Virus record (IMG/VR): IMGVR_UViG_3300032323_001008
Location: 1-42,488 of that record
Source: a virus
Length of the DNA: 42,488 nt
Direction: 5' to 3' (one strand)
Position 1 is the first letter of the stretch; every line of letters starts with the position of its first letter. This document shows positions 4,288 to 42,488 of the stretch, piece after piece. The position numbers and the translations under genes are program-made. The notes below the pieces were generated by a model. That model was not told where the DNA came from and made no database searches. It saw nothing but the letters and a program-made list of their open reading frames with translations.

Positions 4288-5303
4288 TAAAGAAATCTAA
4301 AGTAGCAATATTTTCCGATCTCCATTTGGGAATTTATGGAAATTCAACGGACTGGCATGACATCGCTCTGAAATGGGCAGACTGGATTGCATCAGATTTG
4401 AAGAAAAAGAAGATCAAGGACATTTTCTTCCTTGGGGACTTCTTTCACAATCGTTCGGAAATCTCAGTCCAAACGGTTCATGTCGCTTCCCTGATTCTGG
4501 AGAAGTTGAAAGATTTCAATATTCTGATGATCATTGGAAATCATGACTGTTATTACAAGAACAGATCAGATGTTCACAGCCTTGGACTCCTCAAGGGACA
4601 CCATAATCTGACAATCATCGACAAGCCTCTGGAATTTGAGGCATTCGGAACGAAATTAGCTTTCGTTCCGTGGGAAGGATCAATTCCTGATGGTAAATTT
4701 GATTACATCTTTGGGCATTTTGAGATTATCAGTTTCAAGATGAACAATTTCAAGGTCTGTGATCATGGACACGATCCGATGGACTTTCTCGCTTCCAAAA
4801 CATCCACGGTATTCTCAGGACATTTCCACAATCGTCACTCCAAGAAATACAATGAGGGTTCCATCCATTATGTGGGAAATACCTTCCCCATGGATTTCTC
4901 TGATGTGGGAAATGAGAGGGGTTATCACATTCTGGATGTTGAGAGCGGCGATCTTGAATTCTTCGCAAATCCTGTATCTCCAAAGTTTATTAGGATTTTG
5001 TTGAGTAAAAGTGATGATCTTTCTGATGATCTTATCAAGGGTAATATCGTCAAGCTGATTATTGACAAAGACATCAAGGATGATACACTGGAGAAAATTA
5101 AGGCGAATATCCTCGCTCTATCACCCCATCAGTTGACCACGGAATTCAATGTGACTTCCAAATCCATTGATAGTGTAGAGCAAGTGGATTCCATTGATTT
5201 GACAGAGATGTTTGAGGAGTTCCAAGAGCAACTGAAATTGGATGGTGGTAAAGATGTGCGTGTGAAAAATTTAATTGGATTGTTGTATGAGAGAAATAAG
5301 TGA
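4284..5303 (+). CDS. 47: gp47 recombination endonuclease subunit (Mre11-like)
   Basis: The 339-aa product is the metallophosphoesterase half of the gp46-gp47 complex, the phage counterpart of Mre11-Rad50 and SbcD-SbcC. It resects DNA ends for recombination-dependent replication and degrades host DNA. The five phosphodiesterase motifs are visible: SDLHLG at 11-16, GDFFHNR at 51-57, GNHD at 85-88, GHFE near 144-147 and GHFHNRH at 179-185. The length equals that of T4 gp47 (339 aa). The partner subunit 46 follows after one small gene. Confidence 0.95.
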   Translation: MIKKSKVAIFSDLHLGIYGNSTDWHDIALKWADWIASDLKKKKIKDIFFLGDFFHNRSEISVQTVHVASLILEKLKDFNILMIIGNHDCYYKNRSDVHSLGLLKGHHNLTIIDKPLEFEAFGTKLAFVPWEGSIPDGKFDYIFGHFEIISFKMNNFKVCDHGHDPMDFLASKTSTVFSGHFHNRHSKKYNEGSIHYVGNTFPMDFSDVGNERGYHILDVESGDLEFFANPVSPKFIRILLSKSDDLSDDLIKGNIVKLIIDKDIKDDTLEKIKANILALSPHQLTTEFNVTSKSIDSVEQVDSIDLTEMFEEFQEQLKLDGGKDVRVKNLIGLLYERNK

Positions 5304-5487
5304 TAAAATACTGGAAGTTGTGGATAAGACGAATGGGGCATTTTGGGGAGATTTTTATAAAAATCTGATACCAACCTACAGCGTTGGTGATGTCAGATCC
5401 GCTCTTAGGTCGCTTTTAAATGATGGAATTCTTAGAATGAAAGAAGATTCGGAGGAACATGATTGGGAATATCTCCGTAAACGATAA
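5287..5487 (+). CDS. small winged-helix-like protein
   Basis: The 66-aa product has three predicted helices and a VRSALRSLLNDGILR stretch near residues 37-51. This is the usual look of the recognition helix and first wing strand of a winged-helix DNA-binding domain. A function as a small regulator or DNA-binding accessory of the nuclease is an inference. The ATG at 5287 is preferred over an upstream TTG at 5275. The gene overlaps the end of 47 by 17 nt and lies 6 nt before 46. T4 also has very small genes beside 46/47. Confidence 0.65.
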   Translation: MREISDKILEVVDKTNGAFWGDFYKNLIPTYSVGDVRSALRSLLNDGILRMKEDSEEHDWEYLRKR

Positions 5488-5490
5488 AAT
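5463..5490 (+). promoter_or_regulatory. possible weak promoter for gene 46
   Basis: TTGGGA (5463-5468), 16 nt, TAAAAT (5485-5490), then 3 nt to the ATG at 5494. Spacing equals that of the better sites but the -35 is poor. Confidence 0.25.
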
Positions 5491-5493
5491 TTA

Positions 5494-7293
5494 ATGAGAC
5501 GCATTACGTTCAAAAACCTCCGCATCCAGAATTTCCTCAGTATTGGAAATGATGTGGTTGAAATCAATTACCAGAATGGGCTAAATCTCATTACTGGTAT
5601 CAATCGTGACTTTCCTGATCGTAAAAACGCGATTGGAAAAACTAGCATAGCCAATGCCCATTTCTTCGCTATCTATGGGGATGCATTGAAGAAATTGAAG
5701 CGTGATTTCATTGTCAACAATGTCACCAAAGGTAAGGGCATGGTTGAGCTTGAATTTGATGTGGAAACGGAGAAATCCAAGGACACTTATATCGTAAAAC
5801 GTCAAGTCAAGCCATCCAAGGTAGAGCTTTGGAAAAACGGGGAGGATATCACGCTGGATTCCATCGCCAATAACAAGGATTTCATCGCTGATCTGGTGGG
5901 AACGAATGCCGATGCTTGTAAGAAGTGTGACATTCTCACGATGAATGATAAGAACAATCCTCCATTCATGGCAATGAAACCAGAGGATAAGCGTAAATTC
6001 ATCAATGATATTTTCTCTTTGGAAGTATTCGGGAGAATGATGAAGGATTTGAAGAGCATCATCACTGATAACAACAAGGAGATGAGCATTTCATCCACTA
6101 AGATTGATGAGATTACCAATACACTGGAAACCCTTAAGAATCAACAGGAGATTTACAGGAAGAAACAGGAGGAGCGGGAAGCTATTTTCAAAGTTCGTAG
6201 AGAGAGTATTGAAAATGACATTAAGAGTGTTGAAGATGACATTAAATCATTTGAGAAAATTCCTGATATTTCGGAGATTGAAGCGAATCTGAAAAAATAT
6301 GAGGATGGTTATGATAAAATCACCGATAAGCAATCCTCTCTGACATCTAAATTGTCGGAGAAAAGGACTCTTAAGAAGGTCAAGGAAGCTGAGTTGGTGA
6401 AAGTTCAATCTGTGGGGGGTGTGACTTGCGATAAATGTCTTCAAGAGATTCCCCACGATCATATCGCCCTCTTGACGCATAGGATATCCGATCTGGAAGA
6501 TCATATTTGTAATTTTGATGATGAAATCAAAGATATTCAAGAAGAGAATAAAATTCTCCAAGGTAAAAAGGATAAGATTTCCAACAAGATCGCTGAATTC
6601 AAATCGGAAATTAAAAGAGTCGAGAAATTGCAAAGGGAACTTCAATCCCTGAAAGATCTACTCGTCAGAAATCAGAAAGAATTGAAAACATTGTTGGAAG
6701 ATTTCAAACAGGAGGAAACGCCGATTTTTGATACGAATGTCACGGAAACGGAAGAGCGCAAGAAATCGGAAGTTGAGAAATATGCCAAATTGAAGGAATA
6801 TTCCGATGATCTGGAGACTTGTAAGTTCATGCTCGGAGAAGAGGGTGTGAAATCATTCGTGGTGAAACGTCTCCTTTCCATGCTCAATGCATCCATCCAA
6901 CAATACATCAATGATCTGGGACTCTCCATTCGCTGCAAATTTGACGAATACTTTGATGAACAGATGACCAATGACAAGGGTAAGGAAATCTGTTATTGGA
7001 ACTTGTCGGGAGCGGAGGGTAGGACGATTGATCTGGCATGTGCGTGGGCATTCAAGGACATCAAACGTAAGATTTCAGGTGTATCATCCAATTTGGAGAT
7101 ACTTGATGAGGTGGTCGATGGGGGCTTTGACAGCGTGGGCTATGACAAGCTGATTGATGTTATTAAGCAAAGAATTGAACGGGATAAATTATCAATTTAT
7201 GCCATTTCTCATAGGACTGAAACCAACAAGCACGTAGACTCTGATAAAGTGGTCATGCTTGAGATGGATGGAGGAATTACTAGAAGGATTTAA
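5494..7293 (+). CDS. 46: gp46 recombination endonuclease subunit (Rad50-like ATPase)
   Basis: The 599-aa product is the SMC/Rad50-type ATPase partner of gp47. The N-terminal ATPase half holds an extended P-loop ending in NAIGKTS at 45-51. Two long coiled-coil arms flank a CDKC zinc hook at 312-315. The C-terminal half has an ABC signature NLSGAEGRT (about 505-513), a Walker B LEILDEV and a switch AISHR. T4 gp46 is 560 aa. The P-loop is unusual: about eight residues are inserted between the ITGIN strand end and the AIGKT loop, and the canonical first Gly of GxxxxGKT is not in place. The usual NGxGKS loop seems to be rearranged rather than lost. Confidence 0.95.
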   Translation: MRRITFKNLRIQNFLSIGNDVVEINYQNGLNLITGINRDFPDRKNAIGKTSIANAHFFAIYGDALKKLKRDFIVNNVTKGKGMVELEFDVETEKSKDTYIVKRQVKPSKVELWKNGEDITLDSIANNKDFIADLVGTNADACKKCDILTMNDKNNPPFMAMKPEDKRKFINDIFSLEVFGRMMKDLKSIITDNNKEMSISSTKIDEITNTLETLKNQQEIYRKKQEEREAIFKVRRESIENDIKSVEDDIKSFEKIPDISEIEANLKKYEDGYDKITDKQSSLTSKLSEKRTLKKVKEAELVKVQSVGGVTCDKCLQEIPHDHIALLTHRISDLEDHICNFDDEIKDIQEENKILQGKKDKISNKIAEFKSEIKRVEKLQRELQSLKDLLVRNQKELKTLLEDFKQEETPIFDTNVTETEERKKSEVEKYAKLKEYSDDLETCKFMLGEEGVKSFVVKRLLSMLNASIQQYINDLGLSIRCKFDEYFDEQMTNDKGKEICYWNLSGAEGRTIDLACAWAFKDIKRKISGVSSNLEILDEVVDGGFDSVGYDKLIDVIKQRIERDKLSIYAISHRTETNKHVDSDKVVMLEMDGGITRRI

Positions 7294-8116: not shown

Positions 8117-9304
8117 ATGTTCCTGAGTCCATCTCCGTTTCCTTCTCCTTTTCCACCATCACCAGTTCAACAAGTTACCCAAAAGAAACCTGAAAAGGGT
8201 AACACATTTTTAAATTTCGCGGCTGACGGCGGAGGCTGCATGGCGTGGCGCATCGGCTGGCCGGAAATCCATATTAACATGTCGGGACTCGGTTCATCTT
8301 CAACCATGTCCAAGATGGTATTTGATAAGAATTTCTACATGGATGTAAAGACCATCAAGCTTCAAAGGCAAGCTGCGGAACACCAGAAGGAATTTATTCA
8401 ATGGTTGAAGTCCATCCAGAAAGAATGTGATTTCAAGATCATCTATGAAGTGGATGATGTGGTATTCCGTGAGGATATTCCCGATTATAATATTCATAAG
8501 AAGGAATTTGATAATGATGAGATTCGCCAGAATTGTGTTGATATGATCAATATGGTGGATGAGGTTACTGTGACATGTAAATTCATGCGCGATCTTTACA
8601 AATTGCGGACTGGTAAGCAGGAGATCTCCGTTGTTCCCAATTTCCCTCCCGAATGGTGGATCGGTCATAGCTATGATTACAGGAAAGTCATAGCAAATCA
8701 TGACAAGAATAAGAAAAAGCCACGAATTGTTTATTCAGGTTCCGGCGCACATTTTGATGTGAACAACAGGACGAATCAGCAGGATGATTTCACCCATGTT
8801 TTGAAATTCATTGTTGACAACGTTGACAAATATCAATTTGTTTTCATTGGAGCATTTCCCCCACCCCTGAAACCATATGTGGATTCCCGTAAGATTGAAT
8901 TCCATTCATGGCAAAGTCTGATGAATTATCCCAAATTTCTTGCATCCCTGAATGCCCAATTATTCATCGCGCCTTTACAAGATAATAATTTCAATAAGAG
9001 TAAATCGGATATTAAATTTGTGGAATCCGCCATTCTTGGAACACCCTGTATGTGTCAGGATTTGGTGACATATGAAGATGCTCCTGATTTCCTTAAATTT
9101 AAAGACTCGGAGGATTTGGCATACAAGGTGGAGAAGATTTTGAATTGGAAAAACCGTTCAAAATATTATTCTCTTGTTCCAGAACTTCGTAAAGTTGGGG
9201 AAAGTCGTTTCCTTGAGAAGCCCCAGAACATTGGAGCGTTTCTTGAGCCTCTGATGACACCATATGGCGATCCATCTAGGAGATTCATGCTGCCGTGGAA
9301 TTGA
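8117..9304 (+). CDS. glycosyltransferase, GT4/GT-B type
   Basis: The 395-aa product looks like a GT-B fold glycosyltransferase of family GT4 (glycosyl transferases group 1). It begins with a Pro/Ser/Phe-rich segment, followed by a DGGGC-containing strand-loop near residues 37-41, an EVDDVVF motif near 115-121, VVPNFPP near 176-182, an RIVYSGSGAHF segment that opens the second Rossmann domain, and a C-terminal nucleotide-sugar region (SDIKFVESAILGTPCMCQD). The substrate cannot be read from sequence; modified DNA bases, virion proteins and host surface are all possible. It has its own promoter, so it is regulated apart from genes 46 and 43. A GC-rich stretch at 8215-8270 stands out from its AT-rich surroundings. 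Confidence 0.8.
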   Translation: MFLSPSPFPSPFPPSPVQQVTQKKPEKGNTFLNFAADGGGCMAWRIGWPEIHINMSGLGSSSTMSKMVFDKNFYMDVKTIKLQRQAAEHQKEFIQWLKSIQKECDFKIIYEVDDVVFREDIPDYNIHKKEFDNDEIRQNCVDMINMVDEVTVTCKFMRDLYKLRTGKQEISVVPNFPPEWWIGHSYDYRKVIANHDKNKKKPRIVYSGSGAHFDVNNRTNQQDDFTHVLKFIVDNVDKYQFVFIGAFPPPLKPYVDSRKIEFHSWQSLMNYPKFLASLNAQLFIAPLQDNNFNKSKSDIKFVESAILGTPCMCQDLVTYEDAPDFLKFKDSEDLAYKVEKILNWKNRSKYYSLVPELRKVGESRFLEKPQNIGAFLEPLMTPYGDPSRRFMLPWN

Positions 9305-13646: not shown

Positions 13647-14433
13647 AAAAGGAATTCACTTGTTTCGTGGAGATTGTTTGGAAGTTCTTAGAAAAATACC
13701 AAACAATTCTGTTGATATGTTCTTCTTTTCTCCACCTTATGATGAACTTAGGAATTACAACGGGTTTTCTTTAGATTTGCCGGAATTGGGTAAGGAGATT
13801 GAGAGAACTCTAAAGGATGGTGGTGTCTCCGTCATGGTGATTCAGGATTCTACTAATAATTTCAAAAAATCAGGAACAACATTCCGAACCATTGTGAATT
13901 GGTTGGATAATACTGAATTAAAATTATGGGAATGTTGTATTTACAATCGTAAGGCAACACCGGGAGCGTGGTGGACGTATCGATTCAGCGTGGATCATGA
14001 ATACATTCCAATTTTTTTTAAGGGTAAGCGTCCCCAACATTTTGATAAGGAACACATGAAAATTGTGAATCCTAATGCTGGTAAGAAAATCAATGGTTCT
14101 GTGAGAGGAAAGGATGGTGATTTAATACCTCTACAATGCACCACTAATGCAATGATGTGTTGTGGGACGGTTCAACATTATTCAAATTCCAAGAGAGAAA
14201 GACCCAAGGATTGGCACATCAAAAAACAACACCCTGCAACATTTCCAGAAAAATTGACTTCAGATTATATCCAAGCATTTACCAGACGAGGTATGTTGGT
14301 GGTTGATCCATTCGTAGGTAGTGGGACGACAGCGGTTCAATGTAAAAAACTTGATCGTAAATTTGTTGGAATTGACGTATCGGAAGAATATTTGGAAATA
14401 GCCAAAGAACGTTTGGCGTTCTGTGGGCGTTAG
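13636..14433 (+). CDS. DNA methyltransferase, beta-class (probable N4-cytosine type)
   Basis: The 265-aa product has a catalytic SPPY motif (residues about 32-35) near the N-terminus and the AdoMet-binding DPFVGSGTT motif (about 218-226) near the C-terminus, followed by FVGIDVSEEYLEIA. Motif IV before motif I is the beta-class order. SPPY is more common in N4-cytosine enzymes than in N6-adenine ones, where DPPY prevails, so N4mC is favoured without being proved. No restriction endonuclease lies beside it, so it may be an orphan that protects phage DNA from host restriction. The ATG at 13636 is chosen because it overlaps the uvsX stop; upstream in-frame starts would overlap uvsX by more than 100 nt. 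Confidence 0.88.
   Translation: MLIEKGIHLFRGDCLEVLRKIPNNSVDMFFFSPPYDELRNYNGFSLDLPELGKEIERTLKDGGVSVMVIQDSTNNFKKSGTTFRTIVNWLDNTELKLWECCIYNRKATPGAWWTYRFSVDHEYIPIFFKGKRPQHFDKEHMKIVNPNAGKKINGSVRGKDGDLIPLQCTTNAMMCCGTVQHYSNSKRERPKDWHIKKQHPATFPEKLTSDYIQAFTRRGMLVVDPFVGSGTTAVQCKKLDRKFVGIDVSEEYLEIAKERLAFCGR
14401..14417 (-). terminator. possible terminator hairpin for the 576-aa leftward gene
   Basis: GCCAAA and TTTGGC form a 6-bp stem with a 5-nt loop. On the minus strand it lies 12 nt past the stop of the leftward gene and is followed by TATTTCC. It is a poor U-tract, and the site is inside the methyltransferase gene. Confidence 0.25.
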
Positions 14434-16160
14434 TTGAACGGTTCATTGATAGCTAACCAGTGAGCATAATTCACGGGTTTCTTGAAACCACGATCCTTAA
14501 ACACCGATTTATTGACAAACGAATCCTTGTAAATTTGTTCAGTCATGTAATTCATAACAGAGTGTTTTTCCGTTACAGTAGATTTACCATTCAATTCGGC
14601 TTTCAATTTCTCTAATTCGTCGTAATCTGGATCATCAGACAGTAAAATATCTTTAATTTTAGCTTGAATTTTTTCAGCTTGTTTTGGATCAATCTTTGAC
14701 TTCATAGTATTGACTTCAACATTTTCTGGTTCAATTACTTCTTTATTATTAAATTTTTCCTGTCTATCCAATAATTTTTTAAGTTGGAATTTAAGTTTTT
14801 TAACTTCACCGGGAGTTTCGCTGAGAGATATCTGATCTTTAATATCTTTAATTTGTTCAGCTATACCGTAATTTGAAGAACGTCCAAATACCTTATCAGC
14901 ATTTTTTTGAACTTCCAAAGCTTCTTTTGTGTGCTTATTAGTATGATACTGCTCATTTTTATATATTTTTATCTTGTAATATTTGTCAAACAGATCCCAT
15001 TTTTGTTTATCGTCTCCCAACACTTGTTTTAAATGAGACGGATCATACCCCGGATACGAATCATTGTTGATAGCATCATCACTTTCTTCTTCTTTTTGAA
15101 TTTCCAAAGATTTATCCAAAACATATTGTAAAAATTGTTTAAATTTTTCATTATTTATATTAGAAATCATATCACCAAATTGTTCGGGTGTTATTCCAAC
15201 ACCATCAGCAATTCGTTTATTGATTAAATCCATGGTGGCGACAATGTTTGCATCACCAACCAACTTTTGATAATAAATATCGTTTTTAATTTCAGTGTTT
15301 TGCGTTTTACCACTTGATGCCATCTTGCTTTTACTAACCCATTTTCTAGGAGCATCGGATTCATCATAATCAATGGACTCTTTGATTTTTCTAACATTTA
15401 TATTAACCTTTCCTGCGTATTTTATTGTTGTTAATGCTGATAAAATATACTGAGCAAATCTAATGGGAGGTAAGAAATCATCTTCTTCTGTGTTTTTCAT
15501 TTCTTCCGAATTTGCAAATTCGTCATCCATTTGTTGTTTTGATAAAATATTAATCTGTTTGATTAACGGTTTTACCATTTCCAAAATTTTGAAAAATTCT
15601 TCTGGAGAAACTTTAAAATTTTTACCAAGTCTGTTGGCTCGTATTTCGGATTGTGGGTTGGTAGGTACATAAAATCCTTCAAGACTTCTTACAAATTCTT
15701 GAAGATTTTCAAAATTTAACAGATTGTTTTTAAATTTTTTGGATTTAACAACATCTGGATTGTTTGAAACTAAAGATGTTATAAAAAATTCGTTTTTATA
15801 TTGTGCTTGATGTTCTATTTTATATTTTCCTCCTGTTTTACCAGTAGATTTTGCCCACTCTTCTGCTTCTGCTCTATGAGCTTTGAAGTATTCAGTAGCA
15901 GTTGTCGCAATTTTAGAAATCGGTTCATTGTAAATACTGTAATATAAATTTTTAACTATATAATTAATGAGTGGTCTAGACTCTAATTGAAATTTACCAG
16001 CAGCCATGGATAAAATTTGAGAGTGTAATTGACTTAATTCATTCCAAGATGATGCATTTTCAGGATCACTACTAGCCAACTTTAACCAAATTACTGGTTT
16101 AGCCATCTCATTAATAACTTCTGATCTTTTGAGGAGATAATCAAAATCAAATTTATTCAT
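14430..16160 (-). CDS. large leftward protein of unknown function
   Basis: The 576-aa product is rich in Lys, Glu, Asn and Ile, with predicted helices throughout and a long charged, coiled-coil-like region between about residues 420 and 530. There are no Cys pairs, signal peptide or membrane helices. I do not recognise a family. It is oriented against the replication genes and converges on the methyltransferase gene with a 4-nt overlap. A CTAAATA box ends 5 nt before its ATG and no TTGAC-type -35 is present, which points to late expression. A virion or assembly protein is therefore a reasonable guess, but it is only inferred from the promoter. Confidence 0.8.
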   Translation of the reverse strand: MNKFDFDYLLKRSEVINEMAKPVIWLKLASSDPENASSWNELSQLHSQILSMAAGKFQLESRPLINYIVKNLYYSIYNEPISKIATTATEYFKAHRAEAEEWAKSTGKTGGKYKIEHQAQYKNEFFITSLVSNNPDVVKSKKFKNNLLNFENLQEFVRSLEGFYVPTNPQSEIRANRLGKNFKVSPEEFFKILEMVKPLIKQINILSKQQMDDEFANSEEMKNTEEDDFLPPIRFAQYILSALTTIKYAGKVNINVRKIKESIDYDESDAPRKWVSKSKMASSGKTQNTEIKNDIYYQKLVGDANIVATMDLINKRIADGVGITPEQFGDMISNINNEKFKQFLQYVLDKSLEIQKEEESDDAINNDSYPGYDPSHLKQVLGDDKQKWDLFDKYYKIKIYKNEQYHTNKHTKEALEVQKNADKVFGRSSNYGIAEQIKDIKDQISLSETPGEVKKLKFQLKKLLDRQEKFNNKEVIEPENVEVNTMKSKIDPKQAEKIQAKIKDILLSDDPDYDELEKLKAELNGKSTVTEKHSVMNYMTEQIYKDSFVNKSVFKDRGFKKPVNYAHWLAINEPFN

Positions 16161-16646: not shown

Positions 16647-17354
16647 ATGGAAATTGACAAGCTCACAATCTTCTCCGCAACACAGAAAAAAACACCCGAA
16701 GAGACTTCCCTTTTCAAAAGCATCATGGAATTGAACATGGATGTGGATCTTCATTTCTTTTTGGACAACAAGCTACCTCTCGCGGTGGTATATAACAAGG
16801 CATTGCAACACGCTAGAGATGAAAATCTCAACAATCTACTCCTAATCCATGATGATGTGTGGCTGGAGCATGATCCTCAACCCAAATTGGAGAGATTATT
16901 TGACGAATTTGATGTGGTGGGTGTTGCTGGATGCTCAAAGGCTGAGATCAAGTCCCCTGCTTTGTGGCATTTGATGGGTGGAGGGTTCGGTTCTGGTAAT
17001 CTACATGGATGTGTTCAACATTTAGTTCAAAAATATGGCGTGAATGCTGATGACAGATACCTTTCTAAATCAGTTCCCTCAAATTTTGGCAAATTCCCCC
17101 ATAGAGTGGTCATGATTGATGGAGTATTCATTGCCATGAATCAGAATTACATCCAAAATGGGGATGGATTTGATGAAGAGTGTCCAAGTGGCTTCCATTT
17201 TTATGACTGTGGAATGAGTTTACAGGCGCATTTGGATGGATTCAAGGTTGGAGTTGGTGATATTCTTATCACACACGAATCACCGGGACTTCGGGAATTT
17301 TCTGATGATTGGTTGAGAGGTGAAGAATATTTTCTTTCAAAATATGGACAATGA
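16647..17354 (+). CDS. glycosyltransferase-like protein, GT2/GT-A type
   Basis: The 235-aa product resembles the short GT2-like glycosyltransferases of the PF13712 type. Visible elements are VVYNKAL (about 47-53), an IHDDVW motif in the DxD position (about 67-72), DVVGVAGC (about 90-97), a Gly-rich acceptor loop near 110-118, VVMIDGVFIAMN (about 152-163), and FHFYDCGMSLQAHLDGFKVGV (about 178-198), which is the expected acid/base and acceptor region. Substrate unknown. Located between the leftward pair and gene 41, with its own promoter. Together with the genes at 8117 and 42215 it makes three apparent glycosyltransferases of different types in this window. Confidence 0.78.
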   Translation: MEIDKLTIFSATQKKTPEETSLFKSIMELNMDVDLHFFLDNKLPLAVVYNKALQHARDENLNNLLLIHDDVWLEHDPQPKLERLFDEFDVVGVAGCSKAEIKSPALWHLMGGGFGSGNLHGCVQHLVQKYGVNADDRYLSKSVPSNFGKFPHRVVMIDGVFIAMNQNYIQNGDGFDEECPSGFHFYDCGMSLQAHLDGFKVGVGDILITHESPGLREFSDDWLRGEEYFLSKYGQ

Positions 17355-33948: not shown

Positions 33949-36183
33949 GTGGCATTGGAAAACATAGACATATCAACCGTAACCTCCCCTAAGTATGAAT
34001 TTACCTTGGGATTGGAGTTGAATCAATTCAAGAGAAGCTATGTGGACGGCTATTCTCTCAACATATTTGAGGGATTTAATGGTGTTGTTGATACTTCCAC
34101 CAAAAATTTCACCAATTTCTATCTTTCCAGCAATCAGAAATTCAACAATTTCATCAATTCAACCCCCACTAGGATTGAAAGCGGTAAAATTCTCACAACT
34201 CTGAAATTGGGGGATCAATATCTCACATTTGAGAACATTGATCCCACTCCATACAAGTATTTGAAGACATATGAGGAGTCTCTGAATTATGGAATCGCAT
34301 CATTTGACAGCAAAGGTGATCAATTTAATGTAGAGTTTTTTGACAATAACAGATGTCACATTTTTTATGAAAAAAATGAAATAAAATACTATCTAGTGGG
34401 GGATATTGATAATAATGTGTCATTTGTAAAATTTTCTTTATTGGATTTCTCAGAGGATTCCATACAACCACAAGATTTCACATACATCTACTCCGATAAG
34501 CAACGATTTATCATCTTTCTTAAAGATACTGCAAGCGGAACATTTTATCTTAAACGGAATGGGAATGAATTGGCTCTGGTGGAGGTTGATGATAAAATAG
34601 CACTTCTATTCAATGCGTTTGAAATTGAAAAAGGCATTAACATGCTACTTGATAAGGATTTCAATACATCATTCATCACATACGATGAAGTGAACAACAT
34701 CAATGATGATAAAAGTGTGCGTGGATTGAAGAATAACATTCTCTTCCATAAGAAATATCATAAGGATGGTCATTATCTGGACGCAATCGTTCTCAAGAAT
34801 CAATTATCACAAAATGATGTGTTCACTACCAACAATTTACTATCTGATGTTGAGATCCCCGTCACTGATAATAGATTCTATTCATCCATCAGTGAGACGA
34901 TCAAACAGGAGAAAACGGAAGATTTGATCCTGAATTACACATTCAACAATAAGGATTATCTGATAAAATCGGGTAAAAATGATTTCACATCACCGGATAA
35001 TATGTATCCATTCACATCAATCTCTATCCATGACACCAAATTCAAGGAATCGGGTGCATTTGCTGCATATTCTCCCGAATTTGCAGATAAGGTATATGAA
35101 TTATCTGAATATAAATCCAAACGAGACAACAATCAGACACTATTATGCACTTGGTTGTCGGGTAATGAAGTGGAATCGGTGTGGGTTGATAGGTATTATT
35201 ATCCCGATTTGACTACAAAGGAAGCGTCTCTAACAGGACAAGCGATTTTTCAATCAACGTATGATCAATATATTGAGAATCTTATCAAGAATAATTCAAC
35301 ATTGAAGGAAGATGTATCCATCAAGAAATTTTTCGATAAGAAGAGTGATATGATGTTTTCTCCAAGTGGAAAATATACATATCATCGAATTTCCGCAGGA
35401 GAACCTTACCCCACTTTCAAATATTGTGAAGAATTTAGAGGAAAATACGCTAATAATTATCACACGAAGATTAATGACAGTGGAATGTTCAATTTTTCTT
35501 TCTATTTTGTGGGGGATTCATCCAGTTGGGAGGTTTTCAGCAAACGAAACAGTATAGATAGTGGAATTACCATAGTGAAAAATGGGAATAGTGTATCCAT
35601 AACATTCAAGATTTATAATTCAAGTTCTGGATCATTTATCACTATTAATAAAATTCAAAATATTTCTCCAAATCAAGAAAATTTCATTGGAATGTCCGTG
35701 GATTCTGTGAATGGGGTGGGATATTTCATATTGAATAATAATGTTTATGATTTTGAATTGCCCCTCGCTCAATTTTATAAGAAAAGATTGCTTTATGGTG
35801 ATTTATTTTTCTCTTTTAAATCAGATACACAAAACATATTGAATTTAAACACGGACATTGTAAATAATGTCATCATATCCGATAATTTTATACCATCGAC
35901 GACGATGAAGCTTAAACCTATTACAGATGGTAAGGTGAAAATTGACGATATTTACATCACTTTGCCATGTGGTTCTAGAAATGGGGAGGATAATATAGAT
36001 CAACTTGCAATTACAAATTCAAACGCCTTCAAATCTAGTAATATTAACTTACATATCAAAAACATGGATATTAATAATAATGAAATACTCACAAATCTTG
36101 ATAAAGAGCTTGAAAATAGATTTACAGATTTCTATCCAATGAATACTAAAGTCATTAATATTAAGAGGAGGTCATACAAGTGA
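33949..36183 (+). CDS. LamG/ConA-like tail structural protein
   Basis: The 744-aa product is beta-rich. Residues about 508-620 read as a LamG/concanavalin A-like sandwich: FNFSFYFVGDSS, a WEVFSKRN strand, VSITFKIYN, NFIGMSVDSVNGVGYFILNN and YGDLFFSF. Such domains on phage tails usually bind glycans. The start is a GTG set by the TAAATA box 5 nt upstream; no Shine-Dalgarno is visible. The rest of the protein is Asn-, Asp- and Phe-rich and without recognised domains. It overlaps the next gene by 4 nt. Confidence 0.7.
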   Translation: MALENIDISTVTSPKYEFTLGLELNQFKRSYVDGYSLNIFEGFNGVVDTSTKNFTNFYLSSNQKFNNFINSTPTRIESGKILTTLKLGDQYLTFENIDPTPYKYLKTYEESLNYGIASFDSKGDQFNVEFFDNNRCHIFYEKNEIKYYLVGDIDNNVSFVKFSLLDFSEDSIQPQDFTYIYSDKQRFIIFLKDTASGTFYLKRNGNELALVEVDDKIALLFNAFEIEKGINMLLDKDFNTSFITYDEVNNINDDKSVRGLKNNILFHKKYHKDGHYLDAIVLKNQLSQNDVFTTNNLLSDVEIPVTDNRFYSSISETIKQEKTEDLILNYTFNNKDYLIKSGKNDFTSPDNMYPFTSISIHDTKFKESGAFAAYSPEFADKVYELSEYKSKRDNNQTLLCTWLSGNEVESVWVDRYYYPDLTTKEASLTGQAIFQSTYDQYIENLIKNNSTLKEDVSIKKFFDKKSDMMFSPSGKYTYHRISAGEPYPTFKYCEEFRGKYANNYHTKINDSGMFNFSFYFVGDSSSWEVFSKRNSIDSGITIVKNGNSVSITFKIYNSSSGSFITINKIQNISPNQENFIGMSVDSVNGVGYFILNNNVYDFELPLAQFYKKRLLYGDLFFSFKSDTQNILNLNTDIVNNVIISDNFIPSTTMKLKPITDGKVKIDDIYITLPCGSRNGEDNIDQLAITNSNAFKSSNINLHIKNMDINNNEILTNLDKELENRFTDFYPMNTKVINIKRRSYK

Positions 36184-37946
36184 GCTATTTTAAATATGAT
36201 GATGGTAATGCATTCCTATTGAATGGTGTTCCATATACAGGCTTCTTCAACGTGGATTCCAATGGCGTGGTTTACACGGGGAAAAATAAGACGACCAATT
36301 CAGAATTGTTGTCATCTTCAGGGACATACATCAGCGATTTCTATGTAAATCGTTTGGAATTTGATAATACATTCACAGATATTGATACTGTGTCATACAA
36401 ATACCCAAGCAAGCTTGACACTTTGGATAAAAATGGAATGACAGAAATATTCAATCATCTGAATTTGAATAATTTACTGGTTTTCAAATCCCTCACTATT
36501 AGAAATAAACAGATTATCAATTTCCAAAATTCTAATTCTCATTTTTATGGTCTTTCATCAAATACGAATGATGCTTATGGGAAGGATACTCCATATGGTA
36601 AGAACGTGAGAACTCATATTGATCCGTTTTCATATGAACCGGAATGGGCATATATTGATAGCATCAAAGTTGGATCAATTTTGGTGGATGTTAATAACAA
36701 TTTCAAATATCTCGCCTCAACGGGGACTGACATCATCACATTATCTGGAAGTTTCACCAAAAAGACTCCCTTAGCATTGGTGAAATATGAACAAATACCA
36801 CAACCAGATTTGGTGTATCAAATTTCTCACGATGAAGAAGACAATAAAATTTTCATCGTGAGAAAAGATGAGATATTTGTATATGAAGCATCAAATTACA
36901 TCAATTGTGGGGAATTGTTATTAATTGATAAAATTCCTCTGATACCAACAGATGTTGACACATACAAATGGTCATCTCATATCAAATGGAAGGATGCTAA
37001 AACGAAATGGTCGCAGAGGTATGTATTCTTCAATAAGAATAACCCCGAATTCATAAAATTTGGAAAAAATATCAGAACTGGAATGGATGGAAGTAATTTG
37101 AGGATTTATAATAAATTTACAAATGACTTTTTGGGGGAATATGAGATTTTAGGAACCCCTATATCAATCTCAATTCGCAACGTAGATGATATGATTGCTA
37201 TTCTGACGAAGAGTGAAGAAAATTATGTGATCCATTATGTGAATCCTATTGATGACTCCATGACATCTCAAGTTATTCAGGAATTTTCTTATTCTGAGAA
37301 CGCCGCCATCAAATTTTCCAATTTTGATTCAAATATCATATACACTTCAAATTTAAAACAGGTTCAAATGAGAAATATCACGAATAGTGCCTATCCGTTT
37401 GCATTTTTGTCTGAGGATAACCTATTATATCCAGAAAATTTAAAGTGGGGAGAGGCTTATGCCAGATTTGGATCAATTAAAAGGAAATGGAATACTAAAT
37501 TGTTAAAATCTAATAATTTCAATAATATTATAGTTGATAATCAAAATGTTGGTTCGGAATTCCATCTTTTTTTACATAATATTGGCAGAATTTACGCATT
37601 GAAGCAATCAATCCAAGACATCAACCGGAGAAATTTGCCATTATCTCTTAAAAAGTCATATAATGGAATTTCCACATCAGAGACATCATTTGGAGTATAT
37701 TTGAATGCCAATTTGAGAAAAATTGTTGAAGATGTGATAACACTTCAACAAAAAGCATCAAAAACATATACATATTCTTCGGATGATGTAATGGATACAA
37801 CGATAAAAATGCTCCAAGTGGATATTGAGAATTTCTATTTTCAAGGAAATGAAACGTTCAATGCATTGGCCATTCAAAGAATCGTTAAGAATATCATAGA
37901 TTTGCAGAAAACATTGATTTCCAAATCCACAACTCTAAATAATTGA
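36180..37946 (+). CDS. tail/baseplate structural protein, unknown type
   Basis: The 588-aa product is beta-rich for about 450 residues, with an opening that resembles repeated strand-turn-strand units (FLLNGVPYTGFFNVDSNGVV), and a helical, coiled-coil-like C-terminal 100 residues. A beta-propeller-like middle is possible but not demonstrated. The start is GTG with a strong GAGGAGG Shine-Dalgarno at 36165-36171, 8 nt upstream, which is one of the few strong ribosome-binding sites here. It is a downstream gene in its transcript, in line with leaderless starts being reserved for first genes. Confidence 0.65.
   Translation: MSYFKYDDGNAFLLNGVPYTGFFNVDSNGVVYTGKNKTTNSELLSSSGTYISDFYVNRLEFDNTFTDIDTVSYKYPSKLDTLDKNGMTEIFNHLNLNNLLVFKSLTIRNKQIINFQNSNSHFYGLSSNTNDAYGKDTPYGKNVRTHIDPFSYEPEWAYIDSIKVGSILVDVNNNFKYLASTGTDIITLSGSFTKKTPLALVKYEQIPQPDLVYQISHDEEDNKIFIVRKDEIFVYEASNYINCGELLLIDKIPLIPTDVDTYKWSSHIKWKDAKTKWSQRYVFFNKNNPEFIKFGKNIRTGMDGSNLRIYNKFTNDFLGEYEILGTPISISIRNVDDMIAILTKSEENYVIHYVNPIDDSMTSQVIQEFSYSENAAIKFSNFDSNIIYTSNLKQVQMRNITNSAYPFAFLSEDNLLYPENLKWGEAYARFGSIKRKWNTKLLKSNNFNNIIVDNQNVGSEFHLFLHNIGRIYALKQSIQDINRRNLPLSLKKSYNGISTSETSFGVYLNANLRKIVEDVITLQQKASKTYTYSSDDVMDTTIKMLQVDIENFYFQGNETFNALAIQRIVKNIIDLQKTLISKSTTLNN
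37914..37941 (+). promoter_or_regulatory. promoter for the gp10-like gene
   Basis: TCTAAATA ends at 37941, 6 nt before the ATG at 37948. A TTGATT lies exactly 16 nt upstream of TAAATA (37914-37919). It may be a late box with a chance -35 or a dual site. Confidence 0.5.
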
Positions 37947-37947
37947 T

Positions 37948-38610
37948 ATGTTACCAAATCTAGAAGATCAATTTATTGACGAAACGTTTGGAGGGGTGTT
38001 ACACACCGCCAGCCAAGCTGTTTCTAATTCAGATATCAAGAGAGTATATGATGGATATGGTAATGAAACCCCCATTAGCGTTTCCAAAGATGCATTCAAA
38101 TTGGGGTCTGTGTCGTATCCTCTTTCTGCCGCTACTGATGGATCGGCTCTGATTTATGAAAATGGTGTCGCTACCTTTAAAAGTCTTTTGAATAGTGTTT
38201 ATCCGATTGGATCGCTATACCTCAGTGTGGAAGCATCCAACCCAACATCCATTTTTGGGGGAGTTTGGAATCAGGTTGGGCAGGGTAGATTTTTGGTTGG
38301 TGTTGGAACGGGAATAGATGCTAATTCCACTGGTAAAACTTTCACAAGTGGTGATAATGCGGGAGAATATTCACATACTCAAACAGTATCAGAACTCGCT
38401 ACTCACAATCATGATATTTTTATCACTAGATCATCTCAGAGCGACGATAATTCATCCCCATCTACTGGAGATATTGGCACTAGCTCTAGGGCGGTCAATG
38501 TGGCTAATGTCCTTGCTGGGGGATTGATTACTCTGGATAAAGGAAGCAACCAACCCTTTAACGTGACCCCTCCATCTTTCGGTGTTTATATGTGGCAAAG
38601 AATAAGTTAA
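37948..38610 (+). CDS. gp10-like tail collar/baseplate protein
   Basis: The 220-aa product has an N-terminal attachment part and, from about residue 82, a C-terminal domain of the gp10/tail-collar type: VYPIGSLYLSVEASNP, FGGVWNQVGQGRFLVGVG, a GEYSHTQTVSELATHNH metal- or trimer-associated region, and PPSFGVYMWQRI at the very end. T4 gp10 is much longer (602 aa), so this is a short version or a fibre tip. Tail-collar domains of this sort form trimers and often sit at fibre ends. A promoter lies directly before the gene. Confidence 0.82.
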   Translation: MLPNLEDQFIDETFGGVLHTASQAVSNSDIKRVYDGYGNETPISVSKDAFKLGSVSYPLSAATDGSALIYENGVATFKSLLNSVYPIGSLYLSVEASNPTSIFGGVWNQVGQGRFLVGVGTGIDANSTGKTFTSGDNAGEYSHTQTVSELATHNHDIFITRSSQSDDNSSPSTGDIGTSSRAVNVANVLAGGLITLDKGSNQPFNVTPPSFGVYMWQRIS

Positions 38611-38613
38611 TAG

Positions 38614-39645
38614 ATGCAAATTGAAATAGCAAAAATCAAGATTCGTAGAGGAACAGACGCGCAGAGAAAATCTACGATTCTGGATCAGGGGGAAATTGCG
38701 TTCACTCTAGACACGAAACGTTTATATGTGGGTAATGGGGTTCTCAGTGGTGGAACCCCAGCGAGTAATAAAATTTTTACACCCCTCACAAACGTATATT
38801 CATTAACGGCGACCCCATCGGAAGTTGGAGATTTTGGAAGAGCTAATAATGCTTTTTATCAATTGACCGCATCTGATTATACAAATTTGAATTCATGGGT
38901 CAATGTAAATCCGAATATTGATAGTCGTCAGCTTGAATATTCAACAAATAATACAATATCTATCAAGTTATCGTCTCTTTCAGCATTCAATATTGATCCG
39001 GTTACGGTTGATAATGGCTTGAAAATTCAAGGTGGTATTTTACAAACAAATTTCAATACAAAAAGTTTGGAAATATCTTCAAATCAAATTTCATTAAAAG
39101 TTGCGGGTATTGATGAAAGAGAAATTGCATCTTCCACATTTACCAATGGTTTGACTGGCGGATCGGGGAATAAAGTTGGTATAAGATTTGATCCTCGCTC
39201 ATTTTACTTGAGTGCTGGTGTATTTTCTCTATCTTCAACTGGATCTGTCAGAGGAGTTGATAATAATTCTTTAAAAGAGGTTGGTGGAATTGCCAGCATG
39301 AATAATATTTTCACTCCGATTACGAGAGAACTTTCCAGACCATCAACGGATCAATTCGGAAGAGTAACATTTCAAGAATCATCCATATTTGATACCCTCA
39401 CAGGGAACTCCACCTCAAATGGTAGTAATTCACTCTCAGCTATCTTCAATGGAACGCCGACACATACTCTCAGCGGGGGTATTCCGGGGCTGCAAATAAC
39501 AAAATTTGAAGCTATTTCGTCCAATGGGGTATCAACAACCACCTTGACTCTCTCTTCCGCTGGATTTCTCACCTTTGAGGGAGGATATCCCACACGTTCC
39601 GGCAAGCTTGTCGGCAGATTCGCAATCCCAATTTTCGCATACTGA
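38614..39645 (+). CDS. tropism-determinant-type tail fibre protein (copy 1)
   Basis: The 343-aa product starts with the MtdN-like signature IKIRRGTDAQR...LDQGEIAFTLDTKRLYVGNG (residues about 7-42). In other phages this domain attaches receptor-binding proteins to the tail. The rest is Ser/Asn/Thr-rich beta repeats with a compact C-terminal end. It is a paralogue of the next gene. No C-type lectin variable region or reverse transcriptase gene is present, so a diversity-generating element is not supported. Confidence 0.75.
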   Translation: MQIEIAKIKIRRGTDAQRKSTILDQGEIAFTLDTKRLYVGNGVLSGGTPASNKIFTPLTNVYSLTATPSEVGDFGRANNAFYQLTASDYTNLNSWVNVNPNIDSRQLEYSTNNTISIKLSSLSAFNIDPVTVDNGLKIQGGILQTNFNTKSLEISSNQISLKVAGIDEREIASSTFTNGLTGGSGNKVGIRFDPRSFYLSAGVFSLSSTGSVRGVDNNSLKEVGGIASMNNIFTPITRELSRPSTDQFGRVTFQESSIFDTLTGNSTSNGSNSLSAIFNGTPTHTLSGGIPGLQITKFEAISSNGVSTTTLTLSSAGFLTFEGGYPTRSGKLVGRFAIPIFAY

Positions 39646-39647
39646 TT

Positions 39648-40640
39648 ATGAATTCCATTGAACTTTTCCAAAATACATTATTACAGTTGATCGTTCGTCA
39701 AGGAACGGATTCAACGAGGCAGAATGTTGTCTTGAAATCTGGTGAGCTTGGATATACAACGGATACTAAAAAATTGTATGTTGGGGATGGTACAACCCTT
39801 GGTGGAACACTTATAGGTAAGACTTATGCCGGATCGGCAACAAATATAACGACTCTATCTCCAGCTTCCAATGGTGATTTAGCATATAACACCGATAATA
39901 ATAAATTATATCGTCTTTCCTCCAATGATGGTAGCAATATTGCGGATTGGGAATTGATCGGAGGTGTTTATTCACCCCTTAATACGACATTAACATTTTC
40001 ATCGGATAATAAAGTATCGGTTGGAACAATTTCAGGTGCTAATATTTCCGTAAATGCCTTATCCAACCCAATCCACTTGAATGGTAGTAATCAGATTGCC
40101 CTTTCAGCTAGAACAACTCTTGATGAGATTGTCCCTAGAACGGGAGATAGCGTGAAATTGCCCAATAAAATTCAGATAGGATCGAATACGTTCAATTTTT
40201 CCAATGAAAGTTATGCAAATGGGGATGTTTTTTATATTGGAGGGGGGCAAGTTAAAACTGGTAGTGTGGCATCTATAAACGATTCCGTAAGTTACACCAT
40301 TAATCAAGAATTATCAGGAACCAATGCCAAAATTGCTCGCGATAATACCAGAACTATTGGAAGAGTGATCGGTAGGAATAATATTCCGGGTGTGACTTAT
40401 GTGGTATCTCTGTCAGATATTGGAAAAACTCTCCGCTGTCACTCTACCACAACCACTGTCACAGGATTCAGCGCACTACCTTCTGCTGGTGGAGTCATTG
40501 GAATTCTTACTGGAGTGAATCCTGTGAGTGTTTTTGATGTGAACACCGTTACTATACAACCCGCCAATTCCTTTGGTCAATATGAATATAATAATGTTGT
40601 GTGGGAATTGGTATTTGATCTACCACTTACCACTTCCTAA
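39648..40640 (+). CDS. tropism-determinant-type tail fibre protein (copy 2)
   Basis: The 330-aa product repeats the MtdN-type signature of the previous gene (IVRQGTDSTR...KSGELGYTTDTKKLYVGDG, about residues 15-47), followed by a second shorter copy (GDLAYNTDNNKLYRLSS, about 77-93). A beta-rich C-terminal half ends in a QYEYNNVVWELVF segment typical of phage fibre ends. The two genes probably arose by duplication and may make hetero-fibres or give two receptor specificities. It shares one base with the next gene. Confidence 0.75.
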   Translation: MNSIELFQNTLLQLIVRQGTDSTRQNVVLKSGELGYTTDTKKLYVGDGTTLGGTLIGKTYAGSATNITTLSPASNGDLAYNTDNNKLYRLSSNDGSNIADWELIGGVYSPLNTTLTFSSDNKVSVGTISGANISVNALSNPIHLNGSNQIALSARTTLDEIVPRTGDSVKLPNKIQIGSNTFNFSNESYANGDVFYIGGGQVKTGSVASINDSVSYTINQELSGTNAKIARDNTRTIGRVIGRNNIPGVTYVVSLSDIGKTLRCHSTTTTVTGFSALPSAGGVIGILTGVNPVSVFDVNTVTIQPANSFGQYEYNNVVWELVFDLPLTTS

Positions 40641-41203
40641 TGCCTAAAGAATTAACATTTACAGATTCTCATCCATTCAATCTCAATAGAGAGATTGTGT
40701 GGAGCTTTACCCAAGCCATAACAGGAACCGATAATACGTTTTCCACGTTTTTAACACAAACATCTGCAATATCATCTAAGATAGTGGATGTGGAATTTGA
40801 TCAGAGTCATATATTCATATCAAATAAAGATGTGATCACAAATACGGTGGCATTATCATCTCTAAATTCAGCATTTATTCGTCTTTCTTCACGCCCTGTT
40901 GAACAGGTGATGAGATTTCGCTTCACAAATGCAGATAAAATATCCATAGATTTTAAAAGATTCGGGGAATTTGTGGAATTATACTCCACTCCAATTGATA
41001 TTGTCATAAATCCCGAATCAAATGTGAATTGTGGATATTCTTTTACATCCACTCTGTCGTCCACTTTATTTTTCAAGAATTTTCATGTTTGGGGGAGTGC
41101 ATTATCCTCAACATATACCACAAATTCTTTTACACCATTGACAAGTGATATTGTTACACAATATACTACCATATCCGGTATTTCAGCATATAGATTTCTT
41201 TAA
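40640..41203 (+). CDS. tail-associated beta-rich protein
   Basis: The 187-aa product is Ser/Thr/Phe-rich, beta-predicted throughout, with a WSFTQAITGTDNTFSTFL segment near residues 21-38. It has no recognised domain. Its place between fibre genes and the mucin-like gene points to a structural or adsorption function. Confidence 0.6.
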   Translation: MPKELTFTDSHPFNLNREIVWSFTQAITGTDNTFSTFLTQTSAISSKIVDVEFDQSHIFISNKDVITNTVALSSLNSAFIRLSSRPVEQVMRFRFTNADKISIDFKRFGEFVELYSTPIDIVINPESNVNCGYSFTSTLSSTLFFKNFHVWGSALSSTYTTNSFTPLTSDIVTQYTTISGISAYRFL

Positions 41204-41205
41204 TT

Positions 41206-42204
41206 ATGGCATGTGAAGATTTTATAATTGATGGCATGTCATATGCCCCTGTATATCTAGACAATAGAATGACTCAGGGGGTCATCACGGATTACATATT
41301 AGGGCCATATACCAACACCGCGTCCATTGACAACCTTGCAAGTCCTTGGACATTAGTGGAATTATTATCCGGTAATGGGGTCGCCGATGGTGAAATATCA
41401 TTTGGTGTGTCGGAAGGTAGCGTAGTGACCCTAAACATTAATACTTATTCTTCCGATCCCGAAATTCCTTACCAAGTAGTAGTAGAAATTTATTCAAATT
41501 TTGAATATCCAACGATGGTGTATCTCAATCATTTTTTTCCATCAGCTACAAAAAGTTTAGAATTATCGGAGTGTTGTAATGTGGTTGCCATTTATGCTAC
41601 CGTAGCTGAATACAGTGAAGATGCGAGCGGGGCTGTAAGTGTTGAGGTGAGTGTATCATCCATCACTCAAAATCTTGCATGTTCGGAGTCCCCCACAACA
41701 ACAGAGGCTCCCACAACCACCACAGAGCCTCCTATAACCACAACGGGAAGTCCCACCACTCCTCCACCATCTACTTCTAGCACTCCTCCACCATCTACTT
41801 CTAGCACTCCTCCACCATCTACTTCTAGCACTCCTCCACCATCTACTTCTAGCACTCCTCCACCATCTACTTCTAGCACCACAGAGCCTCCTGTCACCAC
41901 AGAGCCTCCTATCACCACAACAGGAAGTCCTAGCACTTCCTGTTGTCCTTGTTCGTGTATATTACCAGAACCGCCAACCACACCATCGTTCCCACCAGCG
42001 ATTCCTATTTTAACCACTAGGACAATACCTCCCATATTCATCGTCACCTCAACACCATCTCCAATTAATCCTCTCACAGACTTCATCATCACCACTCCAC
42101 CCCCACCCACAACAATCACCACTACTACAACCACAAGCACTACCACGACAGTCACAACAATGATAATTAAGTGTGAAAGTCCTTGCAATAATCTCGGTTT
42201 CTAA
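41206..42204 (+). CDS. mucin-like Thr/Ser/Pro repeat protein
   Basis: The 332-aa product has a globular N-terminal half (about 160 residues, beta-rich) and a C-terminal half almost entirely of Thr, Pro and Ser. The core is five exact TPPPSTSS octapeptides (bases 41758-41877), flanked on each side by a TTEPPITTTGSP segment. A Cys-rich CCPCSC cluster follows (about residues 246-251), then more Thr-rich sequence and a final CESPCNN. Such sequences are extended, rod-like and in other systems heavily O-glycosylated. A glycosyltransferase gene starts 10 nt downstream. The role is probably a surface-exposed tail or adsorption fibre; no family recognised. Confidence 0.72.
   Translation: MACEDFIIDGMSYAPVYLDNRMTQGVITDYILGPYTNTASIDNLASPWTLVELLSGNGVADGEISFGVSEGSVVTLNINTYSSDPEIPYQVVVEIYSNFEYPTMVYLNHFFPSATKSLELSECCNVVAIYATVAEYSEDASGAVSVEVSVSSITQNLACSESPTTTEAPTTTTEPPITTTGSPTTPPPSTSSTPPPSTSSTPPPSTSSTPPPSTSSTPPPSTSSTTEPPVTTEPPITTTGSPSTSCCPCSCILPEPPTTPSFPPAIPILTTRTIPPIFIVTSTPSPINPLTDFIITTPPPPTTITTTTTTSTTTTVTTMIIKCESPCNNLGF
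41758..41877 (+). repeat. five tandem 24-bp repeats
   Basis: Five identical 24-bp units (ACTCCTCCACCATCTACTTC plus TAGC) code TPPPSTSS. Identity at the DNA level, including third positions, means recent expansion or active slippage and recombination. Imperfect copies of a GAGCCTCCTATAACCACAAC-type segment flank the array on both sides. Confidence 0.95.
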
Positions 42205-42210
42205 TAATTA
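42183..42210 (+). promoter_or_regulatory. promoter for the last glycosyltransferase gene
   Basis: TTGCAA (42183-42188), 16 nt, TAATTA (42205-42210), then 4 nt to the ATG at 42215. The same -10 is seen at 20214-20219. Confidence 0.45.
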
Positions 42211-42214
42211 GTGT

Positions 42215-42488
42215 ATGCGGAAATTAACAATAGGCATGGCCACCCATGACGATTATGATGGAGTGTATTTCACCATTCAATCCATTCGATTATATCACTC
42301 CGAGGTGTTAAATGATATTGAATTTGTTATTATTGATAATAACCCCGATAGTGAACATGGAAAGGCTCTTAGAAATTTTATAAAATGGATTAAAGAACCT
42401 GTTCAATATCTTCCATTTACCAAATATAAGGCAACATCCGTAAAAAATAAGGTATTTGAGCTTGCAGATACACCATATGTTTTGTGTA
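42215..42488 (+). CDS. glycosyltransferase family 2 protein (5' part only)
   Basis: The frame runs off the window end after 91 codons. It begins MRKLTIGMATHDDYDGVYFT and has IEFVIIDNNPDSEHG near residues 36-50, the usual GT-A/GT2 nucleotide-sugar-binding opening (strand, then D-x-x-x-S/D). It has a promoter-like element 4 nt upstream. Placement after the mucin-like gene suggests a role in glycosylating tail proteins, which is inference. The rest of the gene is outside the window. Confidence 0.75.
   Translation, partial: MRKLTIGMATHDDYDGVYFTIQSIRLYHSEVLNDIEFVIIDNNPDSEHGKALRNFIKWIKEPVQYLPFTKYKATSVKNKVFELADTPYVLC

Follow-up and report, generated by a model that had tools for sequence, protein, structure and literature searches.

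The window analysed here, 42,488 bp in length, is the entire IMG/VR record IMGVR_UViG_3300032323_001008. It carries T4-like phage genes for a gp43-type DNA polymerase, a UvsX-like recombinase, SbcCD-like proteins, a single-strand binding protein, a sliding clamp and a gp6-type baseplate wedge; the DNA polymerase is only about 31% identical to that of its nearest cultured relatives. A 576-aa gene (14430–16160, minus strand) lies antisense within the replication block, with no PHROG and no Pfam match above cut-off. The features of interest are the following.

16647–17354, glycosyltransferase gene, PF13712 match (E=1e-8).
33949–37946, plus strand, two large tail-module genes (33949 and 36180), syntenic in relatives.
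37948–38610, plus strand, baseplate/tail-fibre protein with a Gp10_C domain (PF21939).
38614–39645, plus strand, tail-module protein with an Mtd_N domain; 75 homologous matches in the searched loci.
39648–40640, plus strand, tail-module protein with an Mtd_N domain (PF18454).
40640–41203, plus strand, tail-module gene directly upstream of 41206; 22 homologous matches in glycosyltransferase-bearing loci.
41206–42204, plus strand, mucin-like protein (332-aa open reading frame) with a Thr/Ser/Pro-rich C-terminal half and a C-terminal tag.
41206–41691, plus strand, N-terminal domain of this protein (residues 1–162), without detectable relative in the phage and viral collections.
41692–42171, plus strand, Thr/Ser/Pro-rich region, broken by a Cys-rich/FPP/NPL element (SCCPCSC...FPP...INPLT) common to relatives.
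41758–41877, plus strand, five identical TPPPSTSS octapeptides, encoded by a 24-bp DNA repeat (TRF 41757–41879, 100% matches).
42172–42201, plus strand, C-terminal tag CESPCNNLGF-COOH.
42202–42210, plus strand, TAATAATTA, the stop codon with the conserved TRATAAWTA element before the glycosyltransferase gene.
42215–42488, plus strand, N-terminal third of a glycosyltransferase of predicted GalNAc-transferase-like fold, cut off by the contig end shortly ahead of the point where relatives have their D-x-H motif.

The gene at 41206 is the last complete gene of the window. The Thr/Ser/Pro-rich half with five identical octapeptides, described in a first-pass annotation of this DNA, is present and covers 170 residues: positions 163–332 hold 53 Thr, 43 Pro and 25 Ser (71%) and only two Lys or Arg, and the octapeptides begin at residues 185, 193, 201, 209 and 217. 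Long, repeat-containing and charge-poor, the stretch has the sequence character of a mucin-like domain. The 24-bp unit occurs in 5.1 copies and is perfect at the DNA level, which points to recent expansion by slippage. Two further repeats were seen in this gene: a perfect 12-bp inverted repeat (ACAACAGGAAGT CCTAGC ACTTCCTGTTGT; 41917–41946) within the Thr-rich coding region, terminator-like but with no clear T run, and an imperfect 25-bp direct duplication (41192–41239) spanning the start codon.

The downstream gene, reported earlier as a glycosyltransferase starting 10 nt later, is likewise there: its ATG at 42215 lies 10 nt past the stop of 41206, and 91 codons follow until the contig ends. 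Since the window is the whole record, the remainder of this gene cannot be read from it. The 91-codon fragment matches PF00535 with E=0.016 and 15.6 bits, below the curated cut-off of 23.3; full-length relatives score 26.6–51.9 bits and pass it (GT2 superfamily). Among these is the full-length phage enzyme of loci L037 and L123 (the same contig), to which the fragment is 69% identical; in L123 the enzyme occupies 6001–6822 and its Thr-rich partner 5074–5985. No family matching the phage enzyme was found in PHROGs or NCBIfam, and no homologue of it in the cultured phages of the collection. The promoter proposed for this gene could not be located, there being no sigma-70-like site in the 10-nt gap. 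Conserved at the DNA level in relatives is the TRATAAWTA element that spans the stop codon of the Thr-rich gene and the gap to the glycosyltransferase start; it is possibly a late promoter or a translation element.

Single-sequence scans gave no direct relatives of the N-terminal domain of the 41206 protein or of genes 40640 and 36180, because such scans demand near-exact peptides; the search by way of the glycosyltransferase succeeded. This reverse scan returned 275 relatives; the best 80 of them were taken further, and clustering at 90% identity reduced these to 44 loci, 43 with upstream sequence. A tagged Thr-rich open reading frame lies directly upstream of the glycosyltransferase in 34 of these 43 non-redundant phage loci, at a gap of 14–21 nt including the stop codon, and nine have no tagged neighbour. 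By mechanical gene calling, Thr-rich reading frames make up 34/81 of the genes at offsets −1 and −2 from the enzyme and 5 of about 536 at other offsets. That any glycosyltransferase might have Thr-rich neighbours is ruled out by the control, relatives of the enzyme at 16647, where they number 0/783. Fisher and permutation values for these contrasts are extreme and, the loci being related by descent, are to be read as descriptive only. Relatives of the 16647 enzyme occur in about 15 of the contigs that carry the paired glycosyltransferase.

Clustering of the 21 N-terminal domains of tagged proteins examined gave 14 unrelated groups, so that mere synteny of a single protein does not account for the pairing; combined with the shared C-terminal features, this means that the C-terminal half stays constant while the N-terminal domain is exchangeable. 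At locus L400 the glycosyltransferase is inverted and still adjoins the Thr-rich gene. At L411 (4922–8726) tandem tagged Thr-rich genes alternate with the gene for a Cys-containing protein of 373 aa, which is present twice.

Genes 33949, 36180, 37948, 38614, 39648 and 40640 are syntenic in many of the glycosyltransferase loci, and the T4 capsid protein gp23 is encoded in 11 of 26 long records carrying the enzyme. From this gene order the 41206 product, earlier proposed to be a tail protein, may be placed in the virion and its tail. A scan by the tail protein 38614 found 33 loci with the glycosyltransferase (some contigs overlap other sets), all with an adjoining Thr-rich or tagged reading frame. 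Of the other loci of that scan that lack the enzyme, most break off shortly past the tail gene or match the tail protein only in part. One, L398, is a clear tail module with no glycosyltransferase anywhere in its 150-kb record, a single case whose record may be incomplete. Its tagged protein is related to that of L145 (N-terminal domain 36% identical, E=4e-14; tail protein 58%); the tag is kept and the Thr run is gone. Together L398 and L400 argue for an enzyme–substrate relation and against the tag as a mere signal for the glycosyltransferase.

Thr-rich phage proteins as such are common: at least 120 viral contigs (L003–L122) contain the pattern TTTEAPTTT, nearly all without the paired enzyme nearby. 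Of the window tail proteins and glycosyltransferases tested against these loci, only the truncated glycosyltransferase had relatives there, five in number, each near a Thr-rich gene. Their abundance and the perfect 24-bp repeat would suit a Thr-rich stretch that carries no modification, serves only as a flexible linker and has lengthened by repeat slippage, a reading we consider improbable, as it leaves unexplained both the pairing with the glycosyltransferase and the joint loss of Thr run and enzyme in L398.

The tag follows approximately the pattern C-x(3-6)-C-[N/K]-x-L-x-[F/Y]-COOH. With a slightly looser pattern it was found in 74/87 Thr-rich reading frames of the glycosyltransferase loci and in 1/128 of the TTTEAP loci, the sole case being L037, the same contig as L123; in the control and bacterial loci it was not found with that pattern. 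Conservation is of the peptide: third codon positions vary freely, and Leu is encoded by both TTR and CTN. A conserved DNA element, such as a promoter or recombination site, is excluded on these grounds, and also because tandem copies that do not precede a glycosyltransferase carry the tag. Many tagged proteins have a C-P-C or C-C-P ... FPP ... NPL..I element upstream of the tag, between two Thr runs. The Thr-rich proteins of L180, L186 and L400 are linked to the glycosyltransferase and tagless.

For the enzyme, D93, H95, G188, F189, G190 and E192 are invariant in 47/47 family members, and W215 and H217 in 46/46. Enzymes of family GT27 transfer GalNAc from UDP-GalNAc onto Ser or Thr, and their animal forms start the sugar coating of mucins. 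Hallmarks of the family are a D-x-H metal motif instead of D-x-D, a WGGEN motif and a late metal-binding His; animal members typically have a C-terminal ricin-type lectin domain. A profile built from six sequences matches GALNT10 (E=1.3e-4) with D-S-H, PFE...G-L-F-A, GGE and the late His aligned. FGGEE and W-x-H, present in nearly all members, align with WGGE(Q/N) and GH of GALNT10/7, the W and N being different. With the larger alignment (A2) the GALNT matches by sequence profile were lost, so the kinship with GalNAc-transferases rests mainly on fold and motifs. No ricin-type lectin domain was matched by Pfam in the family, whose proteins are about 274 aa long.

When an AlphaFold2 model of the L123 enzyme (48 sequences; pLDDT 94, pTM 0.91) is compared with the PDB, the 50 top-ranking structures are all polypeptide GalNAc-transferases, at 13–18% identity, with E=2.4e-14 for the best and TM-scores, normalised to the query length, as high as 0.75. 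For the control model of the 16647 enzyme (pLDDT 88) the top match is majastridin, and GalNAc-transferases come only after it, with E=1.8e-6 at best and 8–12% identity. GalNAc-transferases attract GT-A folds generally, yet the paired enzyme, as modelled, is far closer to them than is the control; that any phage glycosyltransferase model would match them equally is thereby rejected in degree, with caution remaining. The other two glycosyltransferases of the window had been put forward as suppliers of further glycosylation steps. This finds no support: relatives of the one at 16647 are without Thr-rich neighbours and its best structural match is a different one, and for the one at 8117 there is a family match alone (phrog_7162, E=2e-20).

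Many phage glycosyltransferases modify a host surface glycan, as in O-antigen conversion and superinfection exclusion, or the phage DNA, and the enzyme at 42215 might do the same and share only a late operon with the Thr-rich gene; a distant relative, L015, weakly matches GtrB-like and other phage glycosyltransferase profiles. We hold this to be unlikely: the pairing turns up repeatedly although the N-terminal domains are unrelated, and in the neighbourhood of bacterial relatives as well; the inverted enzyme of L400 still adjoins its Thr-rich gene; and the predicted fold is nearest to polypeptide GalNAc-transferases.

Relatives of the glycosyltransferase family were found in bacterial genomes (at least 122, of which 80 were studied), at 41–53% identity. 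Except for one distant sequence, the 80 branch apart from 45 close phage sequences including that of the window. Fusions to HprK-related kinase, PqqD-like, GT25-like or other glycosyltransferase or further domains are frequent among them. A Thr-rich reading frame is present in 31/80 of the bacterial loci, nearer to the enzyme than by random placement (p=0.005), which supports a link of the family to Thr-rich acceptors beyond the phages as well; Desulfofustis glycolicus (L337) is one cultured bacterium with such a neighbour. In 22/80 there is an export-type signal with LPxxWxxPV...PAHA. At L328 (3639–4902), L296 (3269–4140) and L354 (1452–2916), small exported proteins are encoded two or three in a row near a family glycosyltransferase; these proteins combine LPxxWxxPV...PAHA with Thr runs of differing length.

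The recurrent pairing, the tag, the syntenic tail module, the predicted fold and the motifs, each directly established, lead us to infer that genes 41206 and 42215 form a phage-encoded pair for mucin-type O-glycosylation in a T4-like tail module, with a probability of about 0.73. The earlier proposal that the enzyme O-glycosylates its mucin-like neighbour thus gains from the recurrence in phages, the Thr-rich neighbours in bacteria, the fold and motifs, and the joint loss in L398; glycosylation itself, the sugar, presence in the virion and the function of the pair are predicted from sequence and models. The 41206 product would be a modular tail appendage in which a variable N-terminal domain is followed by a long Thr/Ser/Pro stalk and the conserved tag. 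The 42215 product would be a soluble enzyme whose GT-A fold is like that of polypeptide GalNAc-transferases; acting in the cytoplasm ahead of assembly, it would add sugar, probably alpha-HexNAc, to Thr and Ser of the stalk. Made stiff and protease-resistant by these sugars, the stalk would hold the exchangeable N-terminal domain off the virion.

As for the tag, its most likely role is to seat the protein in the tail, L398 being an example of its retention where the glycosyltransferase is absent. A variant of the mechanism, in which the tag is a docking signal by which the enzyme finds its substrate and not a virion anchor, appears rather unlikely but keeps some weight: among the sampled loci the tag is almost confined to those with the glycosyltransferase, and the tandem Thr-rich proteins are tagged too, whereas it is retained in L398 and is absent from the three tagless proteins linked to the enzyme and from the bacterial Thr-rich proteins.

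The proposed phage pair resembles animal and protist GT27 enzymes and mucins in the best PDB matches of its predicted fold, in the placement of D-x-H and apparently of G-G-E and the late His, and in a Thr/Ser/Pro-rich acceptor; it differs in the short enzyme without lectin domain, in the low identity, in its occurrence in phages and bacteria, and in the C-terminal tag of the acceptor. The bacterial homologues belong to the same family and often have a Thr-rich protein nearby, and differ in lacking the tag, in the export-type signal and in the additional HprK-like, PqqD-like or other glycosyltransferase domains. In mycobacteriophages Che8, Corndog and Myrna, phage glycosyltransferases glycosylate virion proteins (Freeman et al. 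2023, as cited in PMC12363180 and PMC12619734). As far as that system is described in the citing papers (PMC12363180, PMC12619734), it is alike in having phage-encoded enzymes and phage structural proteins as targets, including their C-termini; compared by description, its targets are capsid and tail-tube subunits, whereas here a dedicated, tagged Thr-rich protein is found in T4-like phages. The literature search, outside which most subscription papers lay, turned up no description of the tag, of a mucin-like phage protein accompanied by a GalNAc-transferase-like enzyme, or of Thr-rich phage tail proteins with glycosyltransferases. The comparison suggests phage virion glycosylation in a variant form, operating in the manner of mucin-type O-glycosylation, the enzyme not being a proven member of GT27.

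Phage virion glycosylation is known from a few mycobacteriophages. If the proposed pair is real, uncultured phages would encode both a dedicated mucin and the GalNAc-transferase-like enzyme that serves it; two genes would suffice for in vitro testing of phage protein O-glycosylation, and the simple peptide tag offers a means of recognising further members. Bacteria would then be a source of a minimal enzyme with which Thr-rich peptides could be O-glycosylated, and the age of mucin-type glycosylation would become a question. More tentatively, and with the odds somewhat against it, GalNAc-transferase-like mucin-type O-glycosylation may be widespread in bacteria and phages, a bacterial cytoplasmic enzyme modifying exported Thr-rich proteins and T4-like phages building tagged, glycosylated appendages with free exchange of the N-terminal domains.
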